Both the position numbers and the translations under genes were made by a program. From the IMG/VR virus record IMGVR_UViG_3300006736_000017, positions 1 through 41,326 of that record: a DNA stretch of 41,326 nt; one strand, written 5' to 3'. Positions 13,856 to 35,717 of this stretch are shown here, one piece after another (position 1 is the stretch's first letter; each line of letters opens with the position of its first letter). A model generated the notes under the pieces. It did no database searches and had not been told where the DNA came from. It worked only from the letters and a program-made list of their open reading frames with translations. Origin of the DNA: a virus.

Positions 13856-16800
13856 GTGGCAGACGGCGGCACAAGTCGGTTCGGCGGAACCCTTGAGGGT
13901 GACCCTCTGGTTAGTCGTTTTGGTGGTGCCCTTGAGGAAGAGGGCGTCCCCACGGAGGCGGCGGCGGCGGACGTAGGTCAGGTCAGCCGTTTTGGCGGCG
14001 TCCTTGAGGACGACACAGCAGTTGAGGGCCCTGGGCCGCCGCCCCTAACCGGAGTCAATGCCCCCGTCACAGACGCCTCCGAGATCGACCCGCTGATCAC
14101 TGGTGTGTCGGAAGACCTTGAGGCCGAGATCGAAGCCAGAGTTGCTCAGATGATCGAGTCGGCAAGGGCTCGTCAGGAGGAGCAGGATGCGGGGCGGCAC
14201 CTTGGCCCAGAGCCAGAGTCTCCGGCCCTTCGCATCGGCTCGGACGTTGGCGCTCCCGCTGGGCCACCTCCCAGGTATGGGGGGTTCTTCACGGGGGAGG
14301 TGGCCCCCGAGAGCCCCGAGGAGTTGGAGGCCCGGCTTGGGTACGATCCGATGGCGGAGGTGTGGGACGCCGGCCCGCTACTTTCCAGCAAGACCCCGCA
14401 GCAGACCGTGCTCCAGTCCAGGCGGGTGCGGGCCGCGGGGATGGACGATCCCGAGGAAAAACGCAAGTACAAGGAGGAGACTGCGGAACTGGTAGAGGAC
14501 ATTCGCGCGCAGCACATGATCAGGGATGCCGACGAGTGGCAGCGACTCCGGGAACTCGGGATGAGCGCAAGCGAAGAGCAGGCCATTGTTGGCCTCGTGG
14601 AGGACGTGGGCCCAGCCGCCCTTCAGGAGTGGGAGAACTGGGACCTTCCAGAGGACCACCCAGACAGGGTGTCGTCTCCGGCCGCAATGATGAGAAAGGC
14701 CTACCGCGATGGCCTCGAAAGGGAGGGGCTGATTGAGGAGCTGCGGATCCGCGAGGAGCGCCTGGCCGAGATCGAGGGGGGGGACCGGACGGGGTGGTTT
14801 GACCCTGCGACCGAAGAGGGGGCGAGCCGAGCGCAGGAGTTGATCGCGCAGCTGGACCGGGCTGCCGTCATTGTCGACAAGGAAAAAGACTACCAAATGA
14901 CCAAGCGGGTCCTCGGCATGTCGGAAAAGGTCTCCGAGGCCCTTGGGATCCCAGAGGAGCAGGTAGAGGCAATAGCGCTCGCTCGGTTCGTTAACGAGTA
15001 CGCCCACACACAAATGCCCGACCCAAAAGCCTACGACCTCATCGCCCAGGGCTTCACGCCGCCTATGGCCGGGGAGTTGACGCCGGGGTGGGAGAAGGCG
15101 ACCGTGGCGGAAAAGGTCCTGTCCTGGTTTAGCCGGCCGTTTTACTCGACGGTTTCGGTGTCTGCTGACCTGGACTACTTCTTCCAGATGGAGCCGCAGG
15201 AGCGTCAGGACTGGGCCGACAAGCTCCACCCAGGTGACCCGAGAAAGCCGGTCTTCCTCGAGATTGGCGGGGTTCGTTATGACAAGGATGGCGAGCGGGT
15301 CCTATCAATCATCGATGAACAGAACCGGATAGAGGGACTGTACGACGCGGATGTCCACGGCCGACTGAGCGGCCTGAAATGGCAACTCAGGAAGGCTTAC
15401 TGGGACGCCAACGCACTGGATCCTTACGGGTTCAACATCTACCTCCCGCACCCGTGGCAGAAGATCGAGAGGGGGGGAATCATCGCGGAGGGGGAAAGGT
15501 TGACCGGGCCACACGAGATTCGGTCCCGTGGCCTTGCGGCACAGCTCGTAGGAAGCCCCATCAAGACGGACGACCCGGCGATGATGGCCCACATCTCAAA
15601 GGAAGAGCAGCGGTGGATGTCGCATGTGGACGCCCAGTGGTGGGGGCTCGGAACCGCCATTGGGATTGACAACAAGTACTACAAGGGGCCGCCGGATCCG
15701 CTTGCCGCGTTGTTTATTCCGAAGTCCAAGAGGCAGGACATCCTCAAGCAGATTGAAGCGGGCGACCCCCTCGCCGGAATGTGGACGGCGAACATGTTCC
15801 AGATCATCGCCCCCGACCTCGCGGCACCCTACGGGGGGGTCATTGCTGCCACCGGAAAGCTCCTCGGGGCGCCCGGGAAAATCAAAGCGGGCGGGTCGTT
15901 CTTCACACCCCAGGGCGACCGGATGAGAACAGCCCAGCAGGCAAGGCAGGGCCAGAAGGTTGTTGCGGAGATGGAGCGCCGCGCCCTTGCTGCCGGGAGA
16001 GAGGTCAGTCAGACCGAAAAAGACGCGGCCGTGCGGTTGGTTTTTGATGGTATGGACCTGGCCTACAACGACGTAGCCGCCCTCGCCAGCGTGGGGGCTA
16101 AGTACACCCCAGAAAACCTTGGGAGGGGGACCAGGGAGATCAAGAAGACCCTCCGGGGGCCGGATGACCCTGCGTGGCGCTGGGTCAAACACATTGACTT
16201 TGACGAGGCCATCTACTTCGACGAGGGGCTCCCCAACTTTGACAGCACAAAGGTTCGTGTGACCTACGGGGACGACCCCATTCCCTCCGTGGGGGCCGTT
16301 GTCGACAGAATTGCGGCTGCAGGAAAGGGGTCGCCCGGGGCAGAGGCTGTTCGTGATTTCCTCTATGGAAAGGGCGCCGCCCGGAAGGTCCGACAGAGAA
16401 GGGGTCTAATTCCCGAAGAGGCCACAGTCATCCCCGAGGAGAAGGCGGCTACGGCAGCTCGACTCCAGGACCAGCTTGATGCAGAAAAGGCCAAGCTGGC
16501 ACCCATGGAGGCGGGCGCGGGCCGGCGTGCCGGCGAGGCGCCGCGTCTGCACAAGAAGAGGGTGGCTGCCCAAGCCAAGAAGGTTCGCGACCTGGAGAAA
16601 AGGATAGAGAAGCTCAAGGTTCCAAAGGAGCTAACGCCAGACGAGGTTGTAGACCACATGTTGGCGGAGATGTTCGACCCACTCAGGCCCGCCAGCATGT
16701 TCCCGAAGAGGACGAGCGGGAACGTGTTCAAGGTCTTTGACGGGGCTGGCCGGATGGCGGCCCAGGTCGAGCATAGGATTTCGCCAAAACAGGTCCGTCC

Positions 16801-19800
16801 GGTTACGGACGTTATTCAGAGGGCGTTTGGGGTGGACACCACAGTCCTTGGGTGGAACGTCAACCGCGGAACGAAGGAGGCCCCGAACTGGGTGCCGATG
16901 AAGCTCATCGACATGATCACAGAGCAGGAGGCCCAGCGGGTTGTCCAGGGGCACTGGAAGAGGGACGTGACAAGGAGGGCCCTCGGGGCACAGTTCCACA
17001 AGCTCGCCTATGACGTAATGGTGGCGAAGGACGGTAGTGAGGAGGCGGCAGAGGCCATGGGCAGGTTCGTGGAGGCCCTTGGGGAGCCCGTCGACATGGC
17101 CGACGTTGGAATGAGCGTCCTCCAGGGGGTAACGAACCACGTTTCTAGGGGGATTCAGTACCGACCCGTAGCCAGGACCGCCGCCAGGGCCGACATCCCG
17201 CCACTACCATCCGGGGGACTCAGCAAGAAGGTTGCTGAGCACATGATCGCAAGGAACAAGGGGAAACTCACAGAACTCCGGGACCTCAGCATCCCACCGC
17301 CGGAGGGCTTCCTCGAGCACGGACTCACATTCAACAGGACGGGCAGGGGGAGTCTTTTTCAGACCGTGAAGGCGCTCACGGGAGTGGAGACCCTCACCCC
17401 AGGCCAGTTGAAGAAGGCCCTTGAGGATCTTGTTGAGCGTGGGATCGTAACCAAGACCGACGACGGAGGCTTCCGAATCAAGCCCGAGTACTACGAGCTC
17501 CCCGGAAAGCCGAAGGTCGAGAAGCCCCCAGCTCCAGCCGCAGCCCCTGCCGCAGCCCCCGAACCACCCCCCGCAGCCGCCGTAGCAGCAGAGGCCGCCC
17601 CGGCAGCGCCCAAGTTGCGCGCGCCAAAGAAGAGGAGCGGGAGGGAACACAGCTGGCCGGGGCACCATGAGTACGACGCCCAGACCATCATCTACGACAG
17701 CAGGGGGAACCCCTCCGTGGTTGACGTTGAGGTCCTGTTTGAGTCCATGGCCAACACCCGGGCGAACCCAGCGTTGAAGGGTTGGGGCTACTCGATTGAG
17801 GTTCCGACAAAGTGGGGCAAGGGGGAGGGAATTCAGAGGGAAGTCATCGCGCCTCCTCGTGTGCTCGTTGACATGGGGGATACCATTACTGACGGCGGAT
17901 TCCGCACGCTTGTGGAGGCAAGGGACCAGGGGTTCAAAGGACTCAAGGAGGGGTTTCACTTTGAGCCCCACCTGGGCTGGTTGGCGGGCAGGGGAGACGC
18001 CCCTCCCGTCCCCGCAGCCGCAGCGCCCCCGGTCACCCCGCCAGTGTCTGCTGCAGAGGTTGTCGAGGGCGTCGCGAAGCCGGCCCCGGCCACTGCAGCA
18101 TGGAGCGGACGAGCGCTCCCCGTGCTCGAGCCGGATGAAGTGGTGGCTGGCGTGGACAAGGTTCGCAAGGGGGAGGGCCTGACCGAGAGGGAATTCCGGG
18201 GGCTTCAGAACCTTGAGCGCAGGCCCCCGACGCTGCCGGAGTTGCGGGCGGCGATAAGGCGTGGGGATCTTCTTGGGTTCGAGGGGTGGCTGGGGAACAA
18301 AATCAAGACAAAGGTTGGCGTCCCGACAATGGAAGCCGAAGGCTATCGGTTTCTCACTGTTAGCGGGGGGTTCTCTGCAGGCACCACGCTGTCGTCATCT
18401 GGGGCGATCCTGGGCGTCAAGATCAAGGGGCACGGCCACCTCGGATTCCTTGAGCCAGCGTTGATTCGCCTACTCCGTCGCGCAGAAGCACCTCCCGCTC
18501 CCGCAGCCGCAGCGCCCCCGGTCACCCCGCCAGTGTCTGCTGCTGGGATCATCGAGGGCATCGCGAAGCCGACCCCCGCAGCCGCAGCGCCTCCCCCCGC
18601 AGCCGTAGAGGGGGGCGCCATCAAGCTAGCCCCGGGTGCTTCGGATGGAGAGAAGGTGGCAGCGTTTGACCGGCTTGCGTCCACGCAACGGGGCGCACCC
18701 GAACGGGCCATGGACGACATCGGTCGTTCGCAACTCTCGCAACTGTACCACTACGCTGCCGAGCATATTGGCGACCTCATTCACCGGATGACGGACGCCT
18801 CTGCGCTCCAGATGGAGCGGGGGATGGCGCTTGGCGGCTACGGGGCGGTTGCCGAGAAGGTCAACAGGGCAGACAGGCTGCTGACTAGCGGTTACGGCTT
18901 TGAGAGGGAGGCGCTGGAGCAGCTTTCGTCAAACATTTCCTCGTATAAGGAGCTAAGGGGCCGGGCCGGGCTCGCCCCCGAGGACCTGGCTCGCTACGAA
19001 AGAAGGGCGGCGCAGACACCAGCGGGTGCCGAGTTGGACCTAAGGGGGCTTGGGCAAAGGTACGCAGACGAGCATAAGAAGCTCCCCGTGTATAACGAGG
19101 TCCAGTCGCTTGCCAATGACGCGGCGATTGCCCTTGGAGAGTTTCGGTTTGACGATGCGAGGGCGGCCATAGCAAGGCTCAAGGGTTACATTGACGAGGG
19201 CTCAGGGCCTTGGGCTGGGCGCGCGTCTAGGGTAGAGCCCGCGTACTTCAAAGAGCCCGCCCCTCCCGTCCCCGCAGCAGCTGACGAGGCTATGCGTGGA
19301 GCAGGGGCTCGCGTCGATGTCTTGGGCGAACCGGTTGGGCTATTGCCCGAGGTCGATGGTGTGCGGTACAGGTCGCGGGCAGACAACGCCCGAGTGATGC
19401 GTGAAGAACTCGCAAGAGCGGACCATGACGTAGACGATCTGATGCGTCAGGATCCGGGCGCTCTTTTAGGATTGGAGAACATAGAGCCTCGCGTAGTAAA
19501 CATTGACGACATTCCCGTGCAGGGTGCCTTGTCATCAGAGAAGCTTCGGAGGGCGACTGAGTTTATTGAATCGGGCAAATCCTTCGGCCCCTCACTTGGG
19601 GAGGGTCTTGTCCCCCCAAGGGTAGCCCTGAACGCAGACGGGTCGTTCCACAGCGTCAACGATGGCATCCATCGCCTCGAAGCCCTGCGGAAAATGGGCA
19701 AAAAGAGGATCGTTATTGATGTGGAGGTAATGTCCCCTCCCCCCGCGGCCGTCGCTCCCCCAGTCGCTCCCCCCGTCTCGGCCGCTGGGATCATCGAGGA

Positions 19801-28344: not shown

Positions 28345-28566
28345 TCACCCGACCTTCCCTCCCCGGGAGTGTGACTTACCCCGGGGTTTTGATTCTCCAA
28401 AGTACTGCCGACGGGCCCACTCCTCACAACAAGCGAGCGAGCACCAGGCCCCCTCTCCCCTGCGGCCCCGCCCCTCGTGGGGGGTTCCTTTGGCATACGC
28501 GGGCATGGACCCCCTGCAGTAGATGCACTTGGGGATGTGCCCCTCCGGTAGTTTTAGTCGTCTCAT
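28345..28566 (-). CDS. small zinc-finger-like hypothetical protein
   Basis: 73 residues, ATG with AAGGAG six bases upstream. C14-x2-C17 (KCIYCRGS) and C42-x3-C46-C47 (WCSLACCEEW) form a probable zinc site of the type seen in small HNH-like or treble-clef proteins, followed by a basic tail (RGKSHSRGGK). No HNH catalytic His is visible in a fitting place, so a nuclease is not claimed. It is ATGA-coupled to the RuvC-like gene upstream. Confidence 0.6.
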   Translation of the reverse strand: MRRLKLPEGHIPKCIYCRGSMPAYAKGTPHEGRGRRGEGAWCSLACCEEWARRQYFGESKPRGKSHSRGGKVG

Positions 28567-29087
28567 TGGTCACTCCTTCCTAGTGTCCTTCGGCAGTACT
28601 CTGCGATATTGCAGGCGTCTGCCAATCCGTCGTCTGGTTTTGTCTTGCGGCCTGGTGTGAGATCCAAAGCAGGAACGAGCCGTTTGCATGCGGCAATGCT
28701 CCTTGGCTTAGGGTCACCGGACCCCGGGCACACTTCGGACTGCCATCGCTTGGGCTGGACGATGTCGTATCGACACCCCAGCCCGGACAGCCACCCGTCC
28801 AGTCGTCCCCAGTTCTTTCCCATGGTGATGGCTGAGCTCGCTCCCATCTTAGGAGCTGGGCGACTCCCAAGAGCCTCGACAACAGCACTGATGCTGTCTG
28901 ACGAGCAGCCTTCATCACAACACGCGCTCTCGAGCCAGTCACTTAACGCCCTCAGGTCCAGGTCCTTCCCTGTGTGCGGGAGTTTAGTGGATGAGGCAAG
29001 AGAGCCGTCCCCCCGAAGGAGGACGGCCGCGCCTTGTTTCCCTGGGTCCATGCCCAGGTACAGTTTAGAAGGGGATGTTGTCGTCAT
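28563..29087 (-). CDS. RuvC-like Holliday junction resolvase
   Basis: 174 residues from the ATG at 29087. LYLGMDPGKQGAAVLL at 9-24 is the RuvC/RNase H opening strand with the first acidic residue (D14). E71 in AVVEALGSR is the second, and D153 or D157 in KPDDGLADACNIAEY the third. RGDGS at about 25-29 forms the usual turn. The fold resolves four-way DNA junctions made during replication or recombination, or removes branches before packaging. The start lies 23 bases inside the SSB gene; the in-frame extension further upstream runs through the SSB gene and is rejected. The upstream gene for SSB and the Sak4-like gene set the pathway. Confidence 0.8.
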   Translation of the reverse strand: MTTTSPSKLYLGMDPGKQGAAVLLRGDGSLASSTKLPHTGKDLDLRALSDWLESACCDEGCSSDSISAVVEALGSRPAPKMGASSAITMGKNWGRLDGWLSGLGCRYDIVQPKRWQSEVCPGSGDPKPRSIAACKRLVPALDLTPGRKTKPDDGLADACNIAEYCRRTLGRSDQ

Positions 29088-29553
29088 CGCTGAGCTCTGC
29101 TGCTGGCGCACCACTGAACTCGTCATCAACGACCTCGTTGAAGTAGAAGTTCGGGTATCCACTGGCTGAGGTCTTCTGGCGCATCCGGATCTTCTTCCCC
29201 ACAAGGGAGGAAACGATTGAGCCGGCGTGGTTCGTCCCCTTGTCGTAGACCGTCTCCACCGAGGGCATCTCCCCCGTGAGGAGCATGAGGTCTTCGGCCA
29301 AGATCTTCAGGCCAACCTCACTCGCAGTCTGGAACTTCTCCACGTACTTGCCCTTACACAGGCCATCGACGACCTCGAGGCCCCACTTGTAACGCTCCTT
29401 GGTCTGCTTTCCGTCGTCGTAGAACCAGTAGTCGAACGAGGTCACCGTCACGACGTACTCGCCGTCCTGGATCTCATCCCGGTCTCGTCTTCCACCACCG
29501 CTAGATTTGGGGGGTCTTGGGGTGATGGTGTTCCACATGTCTGTAATGCTCAT
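29065..29553 (-). CDS. ssb: single-stranded DNA-binding protein (DUF669-like) with SSB acidic tip
   Basis: 162 residues, AAGGAG before the ATG. Residues 30-100 (GEYVVTVTSFDYWFYDD, then WGLEVVDGLCKGKYVEKFQT) have the layout of the phage DUF669 family, an OB-fold protein used as SSB. The last residues are ELSDDDNIPF, the canonical acidic tip through which SSB recruits replication and repair partners. It follows the Sak4-like gene by an ATGA overlap. Together these are a known annealing pair: Sak4-type ATPases work with their phage SSB. Confidence 0.8.
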   Translation of the reverse strand: MSITDMWNTITPRPPKSSGGGRRDRDEIQDGEYVVTVTSFDYWFYDDGKQTKERYKWGLEVVDGLCKGKYVEKFQTASEVGLKILAEDLMLLTGEMPSVETVYDKGTNHAGSIVSSLVGKKIRMRQKTSASGYPNFYFNEVVDDEFSGAPAAELSDDDNIPF

Positions 29554-30299
29554 TCTTCAGTCTCCTTGGTCTTGGCCTCAAAGGCCTTCTCAAACGCGAC
29601 CTCAAGGGCCTCGTAGTTCAGTTCAAGTAGTTGGGGAAGGGGTCGTCCGAGTTCGCCCCGAGAGCCGCACTCGATCTGAACCTTCCCGTCTCGGTGGGGC
29701 GCGGTACGAAGGGTCCGGTTTCCCTCCTCGTCCATCTCCGCTCGGACGATGAAGTCAACCACCCCGTGGAGCACCTTCCTGGCGCTGCCCGGGAGGGCCG
29801 AAGTCACGAGGACCTCGCCGCTTCTCTTCCCCTGCTCGTCTACCTCAATCTCCCTTCGCTCGTGGCTGATGAAGATGACCGACATGCCAAGGCCGCGAAC
29901 GGTGGCAATCGCGTTGGTCAGCTTCCTTCGGGCGAGTTTGTAGCCCTTCCCGTAGCCGGCATCACCGAGGTCATCCCAGCCGTTGGCACGGCAGACATCG
30001 TCCACGAGGAACTCGTAGAGGTTGTCAACCGTGTCGATGACGAGGGTTTCCCAGCGGTGCTTTTCTTTGCTCTTCTTGAGCTCCATCACGACGTTCCGGA
30101 AGTCTGTCCAGTTGGCAATCTGCATGTCCGCGGCTTCCATGGCTGCGGTTCCGGGCTCGGTTGCGAGGAAGAGGGCCATTGGCCACCCGTTTGCCCAAGT
30201 GGTCTTCCCAATCTTCGGTGGTCCGTAGATCATCCAGAGGTAGGACGATTTCGTCCTGTGTGGCTTGTGTCTCTCAGTCGGTATCTGAACAGCGCTCAT
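29550..30299 (-). CDS. Sak4-like RecA-fold ATPase (single-strand annealing protein)
   Basis: 249 residues. Walker A GPPKIGKTT at 26-34 follows LWMIY, and Walker B reads LVIDTVDN at 86-93. A helix with YKLARRKLTNAIATVR and the strand GMSVIFISHERR (about 138-149) give the sensor region expected of phage AAA_24/Sak4 proteins. They bind and hydrolyse ATP and pair homologous single strands, usually with the SSB encoded next door. Ends ATGA-overlapped with SSB and begins ATGA-overlapped with a small gene, between SSB and nuclease. Length is normal for the family. Confidence 0.8.
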   Translation of the reverse strand: MSAVQIPTERHKPHRTKSSYLWMIYGPPKIGKTTWANGWPMALFLATEPGTAAMEAADMQIANWTDFRNVVMELKKSKEKHRWETLVIDTVDNLYEFLVDDVCRANGWDDLGDAGYGKGYKLARRKLTNAIATVRGLGMSVIFISHERREIEVDEQGKRSGEVLVTSALPGSARKVLHGVVDFIVRAEMDEEGNRTLRTAPHRDGKVQIECGSRGELGRPLPQLLELNYEALEVAFEKAFEAKTKETEE

Positions 30300-30523
30300 G
30301 CCTTCTCCTCTGTGCCCTGGCCCAGATCCTCTATCACCTCGAGAAACTCTGCCGTAGCAAGCGGATCTCCGACGGAGGCCCTCTTCTGTCGGTAGGTCCA
30401 GAGTTGTCTGGCCGCTCGCTGTCTTACCTTTTCGAGCTGGCCCTTGGGCCCAGTTGCCCAGGCCCTTGTCGCCCCGTCGGGGCCTTGGTGCATGACTATG
30501 ATTTGTTTCGCTGCCGTGTTCAT
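30296..30523 (-). CDS. hypothetical small protein between nuclease and Sak4 genes
   Basis: 75 residues. The ribosome site GGAAGGAG lies in the last codons of the nuclease gene, and the start overlaps its stop (ATGA). Beta strand at the N-terminus (AKQIIVMHQGPDGATRAWAT), then a basic helix (QLEKVRQRAARQLWTYRQKRAS), then an acidic end (FLEVIEDLGQGTEEK). The basic helix may bind DNA or RNA. No family recognised. Kept because of strong coupling on both sides and the small, well-formed sequence. Confidence 0.6.
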   Translation of the reverse strand: MNTAAKQIIVMHQGPDGATRAWATGPKGQLEKVRQRAARQLWTYRQKRASVGDPLATAEFLEVIEDLGQGTEEKA

Positions 30524-31398
30524 TGAGTCGCTCCTTCCATTCTCAGTTCTTGGTGCGGTCTATCGACCGTCTCGTATGCGTCGCGGGTAACTGCCCCGCA
30601 ACAAAGGTCAAGGAAAGCGCAGCGACCGTACCGGCCGACGCAACTTTCCGTGTTTCTGATGGCAAAGCCACCATTCTCAACTGCAAGGATTCGCTTGTGG
30701 ATCTCCCAGGCCTCTTGCCTCCAGAGTTCCATCTGCTCCTCCGTCCTAGTAACCATCTCGTGGTGGAAGTAAAAGTCAGGCCTGTCTAGGTAGTCCTCCT
30801 TCATTCGTCCGATGTACTGCTCCGGGGTTTCGCCCTTCCTCTGCTTGCTTCCAGGCCACTTGGCTACGGCATAGAACACCTTCCGAACCGACCGCCCAAG
30901 CAGCCTTGAAGCAGCCTCTAGGTACGCCGAGACCTGGAAGTCGATGTCGAGCCTGTCGATGTAACTGGCGTCGAGCCTTGAGGTCGTCTTGAACTCGTAG
31001 ACAGCCGTCGCGTCGAGCCCATCAAGCACCCCAGAGAAGCGGTGTTTCCTTGAGGGTCGGCCCGTCTCCGGGTTGATGAGGGGGAGAGTGAACTGAACCT
31101 CCCGCCGTGCCGGCCAGTAACTCCAGCGCTCTAGGGCTCCAGACACCAGGGCCTCGGCAACGCCCGCGGCCATGGCAAGCTCGTCCCGAGCCTCTTGCCC
31201 GAACACCTTGCCTTGAAAGGAGAGGATGTAGTCCGAGGCTGCCTTCGGGTCTCGGTGTTCAATCCCCAGGTGGGCGGCCGTCCCCCGCCTCATGGCCCTC
31301 GACTTTGCCGGAGGCCGCAGCAACTCCACGTATTTGTACTTGTGTAGCCTCTGGCACTTCCCGTAAGTCACCAGTTCTGATTGCGTAATCGGTCGCAT
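30520..31398 (-). CDS. Cas4/RecB-like PD-(D/E)XK nuclease with Fe-S cysteines
   Basis: 292 residues. Residues 5-25 (TQSELVTYGKCQRLHKYKY) are the classic opening of Cas4/AddB-type exonucleases. Then come H43 in GTAAHLGIEH, D126 in GVLDGLDA, and E135-x-K137 in VYEFKTTS, which is the metal-binding nuclease core; Q155 in DFQVSAY completes the set. C15 with C253, C260 and C266 (SCVGRYGRCAFLDLC) matches the four cysteines that hold an Fe-S cluster in this family. It should make single strands for the Sak4 ATPase to anneal. The start at 31398 has GGGAAG only about three bases upstream, and overlaps the upstream zinc-ribbon frame by 140 bases. Confidence 0.8.
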   Translation of the reverse strand: MRPITQSELVTYGKCQRLHKYKYVELLRPPAKSRAMRRGTAAHLGIEHRDPKAASDYILSFQGKVFGQEARDELAMAAGVAEALVSGALERWSYWPARREVQFTLPLINPETGRPSRKHRFSGVLDGLDATAVYEFKTTSRLDASYIDRLDIDFQVSAYLEAASRLLGRSVRKVFYAVAKWPGSKQRKGETPEQYIGRMKEDYLDRPDFYFHHEMVTRTEEQMELWRQEAWEIHKRILAVENGGFAIRNTESCVGRYGRCAFLDLCCGAVTRDAYETVDRPHQELRMEGATQ

Positions 31399-31516
31399 AG
31401 TCTTCCCAGTCCTGGAGCAGATGTTCTGCCCCGCAGTATTCGCAGGTAAAGGTGCCGTCCAAGCGGACAGACACCGTCTCGTGGTCGCAAAAGTCGCAGT
31501 AAGTGGGCGTCCTCAT
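31259..31516 (-). CDS. zinc-ribbon protein, first gene of recombination operon
   Basis: 85 residues from the ATG at 31516, which has AAGGAGG seven bases upstream. C7-x2-C10 and C25-x2-C28 (PTYCDFCDHE; TFTCEYCGAEH) form a good zinc ribbon followed by a helix (LLQDWEDYATDYAIRTG). The last 46 codons lie within the nuclease gene in another frame (31259-31398), and this C-terminal part has the look of an overlapped sequence. It lies just downstream of the leftward promoter, so it is the first product made. A longer frame at 31368-31598 begins before the promoter and is less likely. Confidence 0.65.
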   Translation of the reverse strand: MRTPTYCDFCDHETVSVRLDGTFTCEYCGAEHLLQDWEDYATDYAIRTGDLREVPEATQVQIRGVAAASGKVEGHEAGDGRPPGD

Positions 31517-31547
31517 CGCGTGCCTCCTTCCTAAGAGGGCCACCCGG

Positions 31548-31576
31548 ATAATACATTTGCCTGTAAATGAAGTCAA
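31548..31576 (-). promoter_or_regulatory. leftward sigma70-type promoter of recombination operon
   Basis: On the minus strand, TTGACT (31571-31576) and TATTAT (31548-31553) are separated by exactly 17 bases. Transcription should begin near 31541, about 25 bases before the zinc-ribbon ATG. Matches to consensus are 5/6 and 5/6. Confidence 0.75.
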
Positions 31577-31590
31577 GCTGTTGTCTTACA
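31554..31590. promoter_or_regulatory. candidate operator sites in the divergent promoter region
   Basis: CATTT (31554-31558) and AAATG (31565-31569) form inverted arms around a 6-base centre, inside the spacer of the leftward promoter. TGTAA (31562-31566) and TTACA (31586-31590) form a second pair across 19 bases, spanning both -35 boxes. A dimeric Cro-like protein could bind here. The assignment is a guess from position. Confidence 0.4.
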
Positions 31591-31609
31591 TCTGTCATGC
31601 CCCTATAGT
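31581..31609 (+). promoter_or_regulatory. rightward sigma70-type promoter of regulator/replication operon
   Basis: TTGTCT (31581-31586) and TATAGT (31604-31609) are 17 bases apart. Transcription should begin near 31616, giving a leader of about 12 bases that contains the GGAGG site of the Cro-like gene at 31618-31622. The -35 box lies 4 bases from that of the leftward promoter. Confidence 0.7.
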
Positions 31610-31627
31610 CCTTGTCTGGAGGTCATA

Positions 31628-31876
31628 ATGACAATAATTAAAGTAACAGGAACCGGACTTTTGCGAGAGTGGACCTCTCGCGAGAGCATTACAAGGCGAG
31701 AGGCTGCAGACCGACTCCAAGTCGGTGTCGCCACGCTGGACTCGTGGCTGCAGGGCAACCGTCGCCCTGGCCTTGCCGCTGCTCGGGTTATCGAGGAAGC
31801 CACCAACGGTCTAGTGAAGACCGATGACTGGCTTACTGAGGAGGAACTCGCGACCGTCCGGTCGGCTCGTCCTTAG
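31628..31876 (+). CDS. Cro/CI-like HTH transcriptional regulator
   Basis: 82 residues, GGAGG five bases before the ATG. Residues 18-50 (ESITRREAADRLQVGVATLD, then SWLQGNRRPGLAAARVIEEAT) are a helix-turn-helix of Cro/YdaS type: a short helix, 'ADRLQVG' turn, the recognition helix 'VATLDSWLQGNRRP', and the final helix with 'IEEATNGLVKTDDW'. It is the first gene of the rightward operon and sits 19 bases from the start point of its own promoter, so it probably controls both divergent promoters. A partner CI-type repressor was not found in this window. Confidence 0.75.
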   Translation: MTIIKVTGTGLLREWTSRESITRREAADRLQVGVATLDSWLQGNRRPGLAAARVIEEATNGLVKTDDWLTEEELATVRSARP

Positions 31877-31893: not shown

Positions 31894-32793
31894 ATGGCGC
31901 GAATCCGATCAATCAAGCCCGAGTTCTTCCACCATGAGGGCCTCGCTTCATGCACTCCGCATGCTCGCCTGCTGTTCGTTGCGATGCTGCAGCTCGCGGA
32001 CAGGTCGGGGCGTTTCCGGTGGATCCCAATGCAGGTCCATGCCCACGCCTTCCCCCATGAGCGCGAGCTCGACATCCCGGCCCTGGCCGCGGAACTCGAG
32101 GGGATCGGGTGCATTCGGACCTACACCGTGGGCGGCAAGCGTTTTGTAGATGTAGAAAACTTCACCAAGCACCAGAAAGTACCTAATTCTGAAAGGAAAT
32201 CCGTACTTCCGCAGGTGTCCCAAGAAACTTTGACAACTTTTGTTGGACACGATGTCAAACAAAGTAGGCATTGGAGGGATGGAGGTATGGAGGGAGACAG
32301 TGTCTCTAGTGGTCTGAATGGTAAGGATGTAGACCTTGGTACTTCTGTTAGCAGAGTCTGGAATACATATAAAAAGTATCACCCTAGAAGTAGGCACGCT
32401 CCTCCCAAGAGTTGGCGAGAGATGGTGGAGGATGCTCTTGGGGAGTACAGCGCTGACGAGCTTTGTCTTGTTGTCCGCTGGGCGAAGGAGAGCAGGGACT
32501 ACTCGTTCCAGCGAAGTAAGAAGCTCGACAAGCTCAACAACATCCTCGCCTTCACAAAACTGCCGGGCAGGATCGAGTCTGCCCTGGAGTGGGCCGGGGT
32601 GGCGACTTCCCTGGAGTCGTACCTTGAGGCGAACGCTCAGGCTGCCATCAGGTACAAGGATGAGTTCGAGCAGGGGGGCAGGGCCATGGACCCGGGCACC
32701 CTCACCCACTACATGCAGGAGTATGGCCTTCCGGTTCCGTCTCCTGACATCGAGGCGAAGGTGATCAAATGGTTGATGAAGAGGAAGGTGTAG
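31894..32793 (+). CDS. phage replisome organiser / replication initiation protein
   Basis: 299 residues. The first 95 residues (ARIRSIKPEFFHHEGLAS, ARLLFVAMLQLADRSGRFRW, YTVGGKRFVDVENFTKHQKV) match the winged-helix N-terminal domain of phage replisome organisers, which bind the origin and load the helicase. Residues about 100-140 form a Ser/Gly-rich linker. Residues about 145-235 (SRVWNTYKKYHPRSRHAPP; KKLDKLNNILAFTKLPGR) resemble the helicase-loading C-terminal domain. The gene ends 25 bases inside the helicase gene. No DnaC-type AAA loader is present, so this protein may load the helicase itself. Confidence 0.75.
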   Translation: MARIRSIKPEFFHHEGLASCTPHARLLFVAMLQLADRSGRFRWIPMQVHAHAFPHERELDIPALAAELEGIGCIRTYTVGGKRFVDVENFTKHQKVPNSERKSVLPQVSQETLTTFVGHDVKQSRHWRDGGMEGDSVSSGLNGKDVDLGTSVSRVWNTYKKYHPRSRHAPPKSWREMVEDALGEYSADELCLVVRWAKESRDYSFQRSKKLDKLNNILAFTKLPGRIESALEWAGVATSLESYLEANAQAAIRYKDEFEQGGRAMDPGTLTHYMQEYGLPVPSPDIEAKVIKWLMKRKV

Positions 32794-34109
32794 GAGAGAT
32801 GTTTTCATTCAGTACTGAGTCTTCAGAGCGGGCTCTTGTTGGTGCGGTGTTCCTTGGCGGTGAGCGTGTTTTCTACGAAGCGGAGTCCCTTGGGTTGAGG
32901 GAGGACCACTTCTCGAAGCCGGGTAACAGGCTGCTCTGGGCGGTCTTTCGTGACGGCCTTGAGGGTGGGGTCAAGCCAGACGTCGGGATGATCTACGAGC
33001 GACACGAGCGGGACATCGTCAAGTTCGGAGGCTTCTCCTGGTTGAGCAGTTTCAGTGGTGCCTGTGGCTCCATCCACCATGTCCCCAGTTACGTGGACCG
33101 GGTGATCGCCGGCCACCGTCGAGCGAAGATCCTCCACGCAGCTCGGCTGGCCCTCGAGGCCGGCAAGTCACCAGACAACACGGCGGCAGACATTCACGCC
33201 CTCCTAGAGGGGGCTCTGAGTGACTCTGCGGGTGAGGTTGGCGTTGGGTCCGAACTAGAAACAGCAGAGAGCCTCGTCATGGACTGGGCGGCGAGGAGAC
33301 AGTCTGTCCTCGACGGTGAGACTGAGTCCGATGAGCTGACGTGGGACATCCATGCGCTTGATCGGTTCGTGGCAGCGGGCCCAGGTCACTTGGTTGTTAT
33401 CGGGGGTCGCCCGAAGATGGGGAAGAGCCAGCTCGCTCTCTCCATCATGGCGAACATCTCTAGGAAGTACGGCCCGACCCTCTTCTGTTCTGCGGAGATG
33501 GGGAGGGATGCCCTCGCCAGGCGGATCCTCTCCTCAAGCGCAGACATCAAGACAACAGACCCCAAGGCCTTCGCGGAGGGTACTGCTCGGGTGTTCAGGG
33601 AGTGGCTCGATGTCCCGATGTTCTTCGACTACAAGGCGCGTTCCTTCCAAAACGTCTCGGCCTCCATCCGCTTCGCCCACCGCAAGCACGGCATCAGGGC
33701 TGCGGCGATTGACTACCTGCAGTTGCTCGAGATGGCCGGCGCGAGGACCGAGGAGGAGGAGATCGGACGAGCCTCTAAGGGTTTCAAGAACCTTGCGGAG
33801 GACCTCGGCATCCCCATCGTCCTTCTCGTCCAAGTGAACCGTCGTTGCGAGGAGAGGGCGGACAAGCGTCCGGTTATGTCCGACATCCGCGGGTCTGGCC
33901 GTGTCGAGCAGGACGCAGACGCTGTCGTCTTCGTCTACCGGGAGTCCTACTACAACGAGCGGTTCGCTCGCCCCAGCCAAGTGGAGCTCCTCGTCCGAGC
34001 TAACCGGCACGGTCCCGCCGGAACGGGCATCGCCTTCTGGCGTCCGGGTGGTGGGTGGTTCCGCGACCCGACCCCCTGGGAGTCCCTAGGCAAGAGGGAC
34101 CTCGACTAG
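32769..34109 (+). CDS. DnaB-like replicative helicase
   Basis: 446 residues. Walker A GGRPKMGKS at 212-220, catalytic Glu in FCSAEM (E243), Walker B AAIDYLQLL at 313-320, then VQVNRR (355-359), SDIRGSGRVEQDAD (371-384) and RANRHGPAGT (410-419) are all in DnaB order. The N-terminal 150 residues are the helical hexamer-forming domain (RALVGAVFLGG). The start at 32769 overlaps the organiser gene by 25 bases and has AAGGTGATC before it; an ATG at 32799 with AGGAG only two bases away is the alternative. It unwinds the fork in the 5'-3' direction; no primase is encoded here. Confidence 0.88.
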   Translation: MVDEEEGVGEMFSFSTESSERALVGAVFLGGERVFYEAESLGLREDHFSKPGNRLLWAVFRDGLEGGVKPDVGMIYERHERDIVKFGGFSWLSSFSGACGSIHHVPSYVDRVIAGHRRAKILHAARLALEAGKSPDNTAADIHALLEGALSDSAGEVGVGSELETAESLVMDWAARRQSVLDGETESDELTWDIHALDRFVAAGPGHLVVIGGRPKMGKSQLALSIMANISRKYGPTLFCSAEMGRDALARRILSSSADIKTTDPKAFAEGTARVFREWLDVPMFFDYKARSFQNVSASIRFAHRKHGIRAAAIDYLQLLEMAGARTEEEEIGRASKGFKNLAEDLGIPIVLLVQVNRRCEERADKRPVMSDIRGSGRVEQDADAVVFVYRESYYNERFARPSQVELLVRANRHGPAGTGIAFWRPGGGWFRDPTPWESLGKRDLD

Positions 34110-34194: not shown

Positions 34195-34506
34195 CTACTC
34201 CTCGTTTAGGATTGACATTGCTCTTTCTAGGGCCGATGGAAGTCCGCGCTGGTGGCGGGCCTGGTGGACGGCCTGCTTCGTGACTCCCATGTCCTCTGCC
34301 ACCCGGGCGTCGGACCAGACTCCAAGCTTGGGGTGGTACTCGCCCAGGGGCTTGGTCAGGATGCTGGCGCCGAACCTCCTTAGGGCACTGCGGGCGGTGC
34401 GCCGGTCCACTCCCCACTTCGCAGCAAGGCCGGTGACGCTCCCAATCTTCTGGTAATCCCCGAGGAACAGTTCCCTCATCTCGTCGGTGATAGCTGGTGG
34501 TCTCAT
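34195..34506 (-). CDS. HTH DNA-binding protein with two helix-turn-helix motifs
   Basis: 103 residues from the ATG at 34506, which overlaps the methyltransferase stop (ATGA). Two helix-turn-helix units are visible: IGSVTGLAAKWGVDRRTARS (about 24-43) and ARVAEDMGVTKQAVHQARHQ (about 69-88). Such double-HTH small proteins are common in phages as regulators. The longer frame reaching to 34830 runs through the methyltransferase gene and is rejected. As the last gene of the leftward block it may control the helicase-block end or the methyltransferase. Confidence 0.65.
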   Translation of the reverse strand: MRPPAITDEMRELFLGDYQKIGSVTGLAAKWGVDRRTARSALRRFGASILTKPLGEYHPKLGVWSDARVAEDMGVTKQAVHQARHQRGLPSALERAMSILNEE

Positions 34507-35717
34507 GCGATGGTCTCCTTCTCTGCTTTGATTATTTGTTCTGCGATCCGCTGAGCCACGATTGGCGTAACGGCATTTCCTACCTGTCGGTACTGGCTGG
34601 TCTTCGTTCCCTGGATGGGGTGGTCGCCAGGAAAGTCCATGAGGCGAGCACACTCGGCCACTGACAGCCTTCTGCGTCCAGTTGCGAGCCAGAGTGTGTC
34701 CGAGGCCCTTGCCGGCCCTCCCTGGGCCGTCCAGCCCGTGCTCTCTTTCCCGTTGGTCCCCTTGTACTCGGTCGCACTGACGAGAGCGCTGGGCCTGTCC
34801 AAGAGTTCGGGGTGCTCCCCCTTCCTCCACCTAGGAAGAACAACCCACGGGCCACCGTTCCCAATCTGCACGGCTGGGATCGTAGTACACGGCTCGTCCG
34901 TCAGGTCCCGGTAGTTCCTCTTGTGTGCGAGCTCGGGCGTCTGCGGGTTCCTTCCACCCCCGATGACCCGAAGCATCTGGTTCCCTTTGCCCCCGATGGT
35001 GGGCGCCGGCTCGTCCGTGCCCGCTGGCCTCTCTTGTCTCGGGTTGTTGCTCGAGTTCCTGCTACCGCTGAGCTCGCCGGTCAGCCCGAGGGCGTGGCCC
35101 ACGGTGTTCCAGGGCAGGAGGTTCTTGTCGAAGAGCTCCCGCTCCTTCCCCGGGTCGCTGTGTGTCGGCTCGGGCCACTCGATGGGGTGGGGGCCGGCGA
35201 CGATGAACACCCTGCGCCTCCGCTGGGGAACCCCGAAGTTTGCGCTGTCCAAGACCTTCCAGTCAACCCACCTGAAGTGGCGACGGAGGTCTTGGAGGAT
35301 CACCTGATTGAAGTAGGCATTCGGGCAGAGGGGTGTCCCGATGCAGCACTTCCCCTGCTTGCAGGCGCCCTTGTGGTTGGTGAGTCCGACCACGTTCTCT
35401 CCCACGAACCAAGTGGGCCGGAGGAAATCAACCACCTCAACGGTGGCGGGCCACATGTTCCTGTCGTCCTGAGCCCCCTTCCTTTTGCCGGCGGTAGACC
35501 ACGCTTGGCAGGGGAAGGACGACCACAGGAGGTCTGGTGCCATGCCCTCGTACAAGGACAGGTCACGAACATCCCCCTGGACCGCAGGGAGTCCCGCAGC
35601 CCGCAGCGTGGAGCAGGCATCCTCGTCCCACTCCACACAGGCGAGGTGCTCACACCCCGCAGCCTCGAGTCCGAGGGCAGCGCCCCCAGCTCCGGCGAAC
35701 AGTTCAAGTACTTTCAT
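34503..35717 (-). CDS. DNA (cytosine-5) methyltransferase
   Basis: 404 residues, GGAAGGAGAAGAGAG before the ATG. Motif I LELFAGAGGAALGLEAAGC (4-22) binds AdoMet; motif IV SFPCQAWSTAG has the catalytic C70; motif VI ENVVG at 107-111; motif VIII PQRRRRVFIV (164-173); motif IX RRRLSVAECARLMDFP (348-363); motif X RQVGNAVTP (377-385). A short insert with C119, C124, C125 and C131 (ACKQGKCCIGTPLC) may hold zinc. It methylates cytosine C5 in a sequence not deducible here, likely to escape host restriction. No partner restriction enzyme is present. Confidence 0.9.
   Translation of the reverse strand: MKVLELFAGAGGAALGLEAAGCEHLACVEWDEDACSTLRAAGLPAVQGDVRDLSLYEGMAPDLLWSSFPCQAWSTAGKRKGAQDDRNMWPATVEVVDFLRPTWFVGENVVGLTNHKGACKQGKCCIGTPLCPNAYFNQVILQDLRRHFRWVDWKVLDSANFGVPQRRRRVFIVAGPHPIEWPEPTHSDPGKERELFDKNLLPWNTVGHALGLTGELSGSRNSSNNPRQERPAGTDEPAPTIGGKGNQMLRVIGGGRNPQTPELAHKRNYRDLTDEPCTTIPAVQIGNGGPWVVLPRWRKGEHPELLDRPSALVSATEYKGTNGKESTGWTAQGGPARASDTLWLATGRRRLSVAECARLMDFPGDHPIQGTKTSQYRQVGNAVTPIVAQRIAEQIIKAEKETIA

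Follow-up and report, generated by a model that had tools for sequence, protein, structure and literature searches.

In an ocean phage, two divergent promoters of bacterial type lie between the recombination and replication genes, so close together that the locus raises the question of whether they form an exclusive switch, as an earlier note on this DNA had proposed, or a single control point for both sets of genes. The window, i.e. the whole stretch of 41,326 bases analysed here, is IMG/VR record IMGVR_UViG_3300006736_000017, and the promoters were located in it by a consensus scan as follows.

31576-31571 (TTGACT), 17 bp, 31553-31548 (TATTAT), minus strand: leftward sigma-70-type promoter, 10/12 consensus matches, expected start ~31541
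31581-31586 (TTGTCT), 17 bp, 31604-31609 (TATAGT), plus strand: rightward sigma-70-type promoter, 9/12 consensus matches, expected start ~31616

The two -35 boxes, about one helical turn apart, the 17-bp spacers and the 4 bp between the boxes were all found where the earlier note had placed them; the promoters it described as face-to-face in fact diverge, standing back-to-back. Both carry -35 and -10 boxes near the consensus at the 16-18 bp distance of sigma-70 promoters, the scores referring to a sigma-70-type consensus that may differ from that of the phage's own host, and the promoter stretch contains 56% A+T versus 39% for the window. Single 9/12 sites mean little, because the seven found in the window match the 7.0 per window in simulated windows of the same dinucleotide content; only these two of the seven formed a divergent pair, and divergent pairs within 10 bp numbered 0 in 100 simulation runs. 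Just one further site in the window, TTGACA-17-CATACT (39534-39506, minus strand), resembles a promoter at 10/12; it shares its strand with the right-hand gene cluster and could be that cluster's promoter. The predicted rightward leader is 12 nt long up to the ATG at 31628, with a Shine-Dalgarno sequence GGAGGT at 31619-31624, and the leftward one is ~25 nt long up to the ATG at 31516, with the Shine-Dalgarno sequence AAGGAGG.

The stronger evidence for the promoter pair is its conservation across relatives. These were collected from IMG/VR by searching with three proteins of the window (Cro-like protein, exonuclease, replication initiator), and those with the complete region were tabulated, yielding 13 sequences (12 distinct variants) in four lineages (window/L004/L005/L006/L019; L008/L014/L015/L016/L026; L017; L062/L066). 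Both promoters, both spacers of exactly 17 bp and a gap of 3-4 bp were kept in 13 of 13, and the expected starts, 75 bp apart in the window, are 74-75 bp apart across relatives; the exonucleases of the promoter-keeping relatives are down to ~55% identical (~57% between the window and L008 lineages). The leftward promoter reads TTGAC, a 17-bp spacer and TAT(T/C)(A/G)T in every tabulated relative with a complete promoter, and the rightward one TTGT, a 17-bp spacer and TA...T in every tabulated relative; L007, of which the left end is missing, agrees over its readable part. Over the relatives, 9-10/12 positions of the leftward and 7-9/12 of the rightward promoter match the consensus, and because the leftward is the closer in every relative, the previously noted "strong start sites" describe it better than its weaker rightward neighbour. 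A pattern scan for the architecture through all IMG/VR contigs returned 22 stretches, every one in contigs already known from the protein searches, therefore representing one orthologous feature of one lineage group. Among the readable members of an exonuclease group with 51% identity (L045-L053), the arrangement was not found beside the exonuclease gene. No match was obtained among sequenced phages by DNA similarity to the promoter region or by protein search with the exonuclease, nor in Rfam, and no relatives of the Cro-like protein were found in bacterial genomes.

The genes on the two sides of the promoters, assigned by profile searches and a predicted structure, are the following.

28563-29168, minus strand: RuvC-like Holliday junction resolvase (phrog_1770, 2.6e-23)
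29065-29553, minus strand: DUF669-like, probable single-strand DNA binding protein, 162 aa (weak Pfam DUF669 match, 0.0017, below the cut-off; adjoins the Sak4-like gene)
29550-30299, minus strand: Sak4-like annealing protein (AAA_24), 249 aa (phrog_124, 8.9e-38; Pfam AAA_24, 7.6e-37)
30520-31398, minus strand: PD-(D/E)XK exonuclease, 292 aa (Pfam PDDEXK_1, 1e-15)
31262-31516, minus strand: small zinc-ribbon protein (CxxC...CxxC), first leftward gene (CxFCDH...CxYCG kept in nearly all lineages)
31628-31876, plus strand: Cro-like protein, 82 aa, first rightward gene (phrog_35 transcriptional repressor, 1.6e-5; XRE/lambda-repressor fold predicted)
31894-32793, plus strand: replication-initiation-like protein, 299 aa (phrog_16167, E 3.6e-33)
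32769-34109, plus strand: DnaB-like replicative helicase, 446 aa, with which the rightward operon apparently ends (Pfam DnaB_C, 1.1e-54)

The leftward arm thus runs from the zinc-ribbon protein through the exonuclease, a 75-aa protein and the Sak4-like and DUF669-like proteins to the resolvase, and the rightward arm from the Cro-like protein through the initiation-like protein to the helicase, an order kept in nearly all relatives with enough sequence. That a Cro-like protein is the first product of the rightward arm, as the earlier note had stated, was borne out, and its gene is the immediate first one in every relative that keeps the promoter pair. The AlphaFold2 model of this protein (five helices, pLDDT 78) has a predicted lambda-repressor-like helix-turn-helix fold, which places it in the XRE/Cro-CI family. 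Its structural matches (DdrO, C.AhdI, SinR and lambda repressor, also C.BclI) have modest E-values, none in the PDB being under E 0.001, and are generic for the XRE fold; against Pfam HTH_3 it scored 19.6 bits (cut-off 23).

Several other features of these genes were observed. The zinc-ribbon gene shares 137 bases with the start of the exonuclease gene, the two being read in different frames; its CxxC pairs are kept in nearly all lineages, its C-terminal part and length vary, and in L017 its frame breaks early. In the distant G009 (56.7 kb), the Cro-like gene stands alone, the sequence downstream of it apparently encodes DnaB on the other strand, and the initiator gene has been displaced to a place behind a cluster of methyltransferase and HTH genes. 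In the window, a pair of genes convergent to that of DnaB (34195-35717, minus strand) comprises a cytosine DNA methyltransferase gene and, overlapping its end, the gene of a small HTH protein (weak phrog_638 match); the HTH protein diverges fast (~38-53% identity), and the adjoining methyltransferase is better kept in several relatives. Amid the structural genes lies an open frame of 3204 residues (13856-23470, plus strand); checked as a possible virion RNA polymerase that might use other promoters, it had no PHROGs or Pfam match.

The conserved columns of the promoter region are the promoter boxes and a shared element, TACAnnnG(C/T), which occurs once in each promoter spacer, on the same strand and 34-35 bp apart, and which provides the following candidate operators.

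31552-31561, plus strand: candidate operator OL, TACATTTGCC, which overlaps the -10 box of the leftward promoter
31587-31596, plus strand: candidate operator OR, TACATCTGTC, which follows closely on the -35 box of the rightward promoter

When 10-column blocks were compared in 1892 pairs, the best match was 31550/31585, two bases left of the element pair and at the same 35-bp offset, and the element pair itself was second; the top score was reached in 7 of 1000 column permutations. Only the OL and OR positions match TACANNTGYM in the window, a result that calls for caution, the pattern having been derived from those two sites. Both blocks are among the three most dyad-symmetric of the region, missing a perfect dyad by one base (OR) and two bases (OL) in the window, and OR ranks second only to the dyad formed by the two -35 boxes. 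The latter was tried as a single large operator and discarded, since the gap between the boxes varies by one base and both spacers stay at 17 bp, which is what a pair of promoters, and not a single operator, would be expected to show. The inverted arms previously noticed in the region are short: the small dyad within the TACAnnnGYA of 31587-31596 is preserved beyond the window's own lineage, while CATTT/AAATG (31554-31569) and GTCAT/ATGAC (31622-31632) are confined to that lineage, and no inverted repeat of at least 8 bp was reported in the region by the repeat tool.

The element varies in parallel in both promoters, being TACAT in the window and L008 groups and TACAA or TACAG in L062/L066. 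Residue 44 of the Cro-like protein is N in the TACAT lineages and V, A or L in L062, L066 and G009 (V or A in L062/L066), with TACAA/TACAG, and is possibly a specificity residue; L017 has N44 and no TACAT, and the co-change rests on very few independent lineages. In the distant G009 (L072, L136), the -10 boxes have decayed, and TTGACC and the element TACAAATGT are kept. Taken together, the TACAnnnG(C/T) elements are likely operators to which the Cro-like protein would bind.

We consider it reasonably probable from these sequence comparisons that the locus is one compact early control node, with the leftward promoter the stronger and both arms turned down by the Cro-like protein; promoter activity, steric exclusion, protein binding and repression of both arms are what we infer here. 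On infection, a host-type sigma-70 RNA polymerase would read the node, binding either of the back-to-back promoters one at a time, as their -35 boxes are only 4 bp apart, and would by turns transcribe the recombination genes leftward and the Cro-like and replication genes rightward. The leftward promoter, nearer the consensus, would probably fire more often. As the Cro-like protein accumulates, it would bind the two TACAnnnGYA elements and so repress both its own arm and the recombination arm. Lambda Cro turns down early genes in that manner, and since both arms serve early DNA metabolism and the element is in both promoters, a single node turned down both ways is the simplest model.

The usual footprint of RNA polymerase spans about -55 to +20, and with starts ~75 bp apart two polymerases should therefore not fit together; to this extent the conserved pair supports the earlier statement that joint occupancy is excluded. 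The further step, that exclusion and the Cro-like protein make the two operons alternatives, with one arm expressed per genome at a time, is in our judgement very unlikely. It has in its favour the 4-bp gap, the candidate operators in both promoters and a named precedent, the reportedly mutually exclusive use of PR and PRM in phage 434. Steric exclusion alone, however, only makes polymerases take turns and does not turn operons into alternatives, and without opposed regulators there is no memory in such a clash. Both arms are early functions that stay together in nearly all relatives, and an element in both promoters predicts parallel repression. The left arm holds no opposing regulator except a zinc-ribbon protein of no assigned role; profile searches found no CI-like gene among the leftward genes, opposite the Cro-like gene, and one regulator gene was recognised at the node. 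A tyrosine integrase (PF00589) was not found in 13 records, nor a serine recombinase (PF00239) in 6; these records are all fragments, and the absence of an integrase or repressor gene from them is no proof of a lytic phage. Profile searches of the window also found no terminase or portal gene. In addition, basal transcription was too low for competition in 5 of 5 E. coli bidirectional promoters, where competition was seen only after strong activation of one direction (Warman et al. 2026, PMC12825309). Mutual exclusion of the arms would require either a regulator acting in opposition or an effect specific to one promoter; neither was found, and this reading is not supported.

The locus could also be a plain divergent sigma-70 pair without specific protein control, TACAnnnG being promoter context and the Cro-like protein acting elsewhere, which we hold to be unlikely. 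The left element overlaps a -10 box and the right one touches a -35 box, therefore part of the conservation of the element may reflect the promoters, and a test restricted to the spacers gave modest conservation (p ~0.01). Against this, the right-spacer TACA lies outside the core boxes yet is kept, even in G009 with its -10 boxes lost, the shared-element score was seldom reached by permutation, and the Cro-like gene invariably adjoins the promoter pair. Least probable of all is a two-way regulator like the C proteins of restriction-modification systems, which would repress one arm and activate the other, so that recombination gives way to replication at a set time: the structural matches include C.AhdI and C.BclI, and a rightward promoter that is weaker in every relative leaves room for activation, whereas these matches are generic, the right element sits within the promoter spacer, a repressing position, and no element lies upstream of either promoter at the classical activating position. 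A further, rather doubtful reading is that competition between polymerases at the shared node, adjusted by the Cro-like protein, determines in what ratio and order the recombination and replication proteins are made; if true, a developmental timer would arise from promoter overlap, not from opposed repressors, in a phage without a lysogeny module.

Compared with known systems, overlapping divergent promoters of unequal strength (sigma-A there), with regulator sites over the core promoters, also occur in Pc/Pr of pLS20 with Rco (PMC4207663). There, however, the promoters overlap completely, and the weak one belongs to the regulator and is activated by Rco itself, with DNA looping, whereas here the boxes sit next to each other and each arm is an operon of several genes. 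The E. coli bidirectional promoters (PMC12825309) likewise let a polymerase bound one way block the other way; they share a -10 element, and the separate complete boxes found here fall outside that class. Among phages, Stutzerimonas phage ZRG1 (L028) and Nostoc phage Nsp-JY21 (L027) also have an XRE/Cro-like gene first and an opposite arm running away, with RecT and a PD-(D/E)XK nuclease leftward and a helicase rightward in ZRG1; their Cro-like proteins are only 33-39% identical to that of the window, and the back-to-back consensus pair was not found in these two. In Manatee Spring phage ctMlz233, a capsid relative, all early genes run in one direction. The lambdoid OR region (PR/PRM, Cro) shares divergent promoters too close for joint occupancy (start spacing 82 bp in lambda versus 75 bp here), operators inside them (candidates here) and a small Cro-like protein first on the replication arm. 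It differs in its CI-like gene opposite, where the left arm here is a recombination operon with no integrase found, and in its three operators versus two candidates here, conserved elements that do not make up a tripartite graded-affinity operator of the lambda type. The node would work like a Cro-controlled early region and is not a lambda-type switch by definition. It offers an early-gene circuit open to testing in a phage lineage that is uncultured, apparently marine and without close relatives among the isolates sequenced, an example conserved in nature of a site that two polymerases would have to use by turns, and a warning that promoter overlap alone should not be read as an on/off switch.
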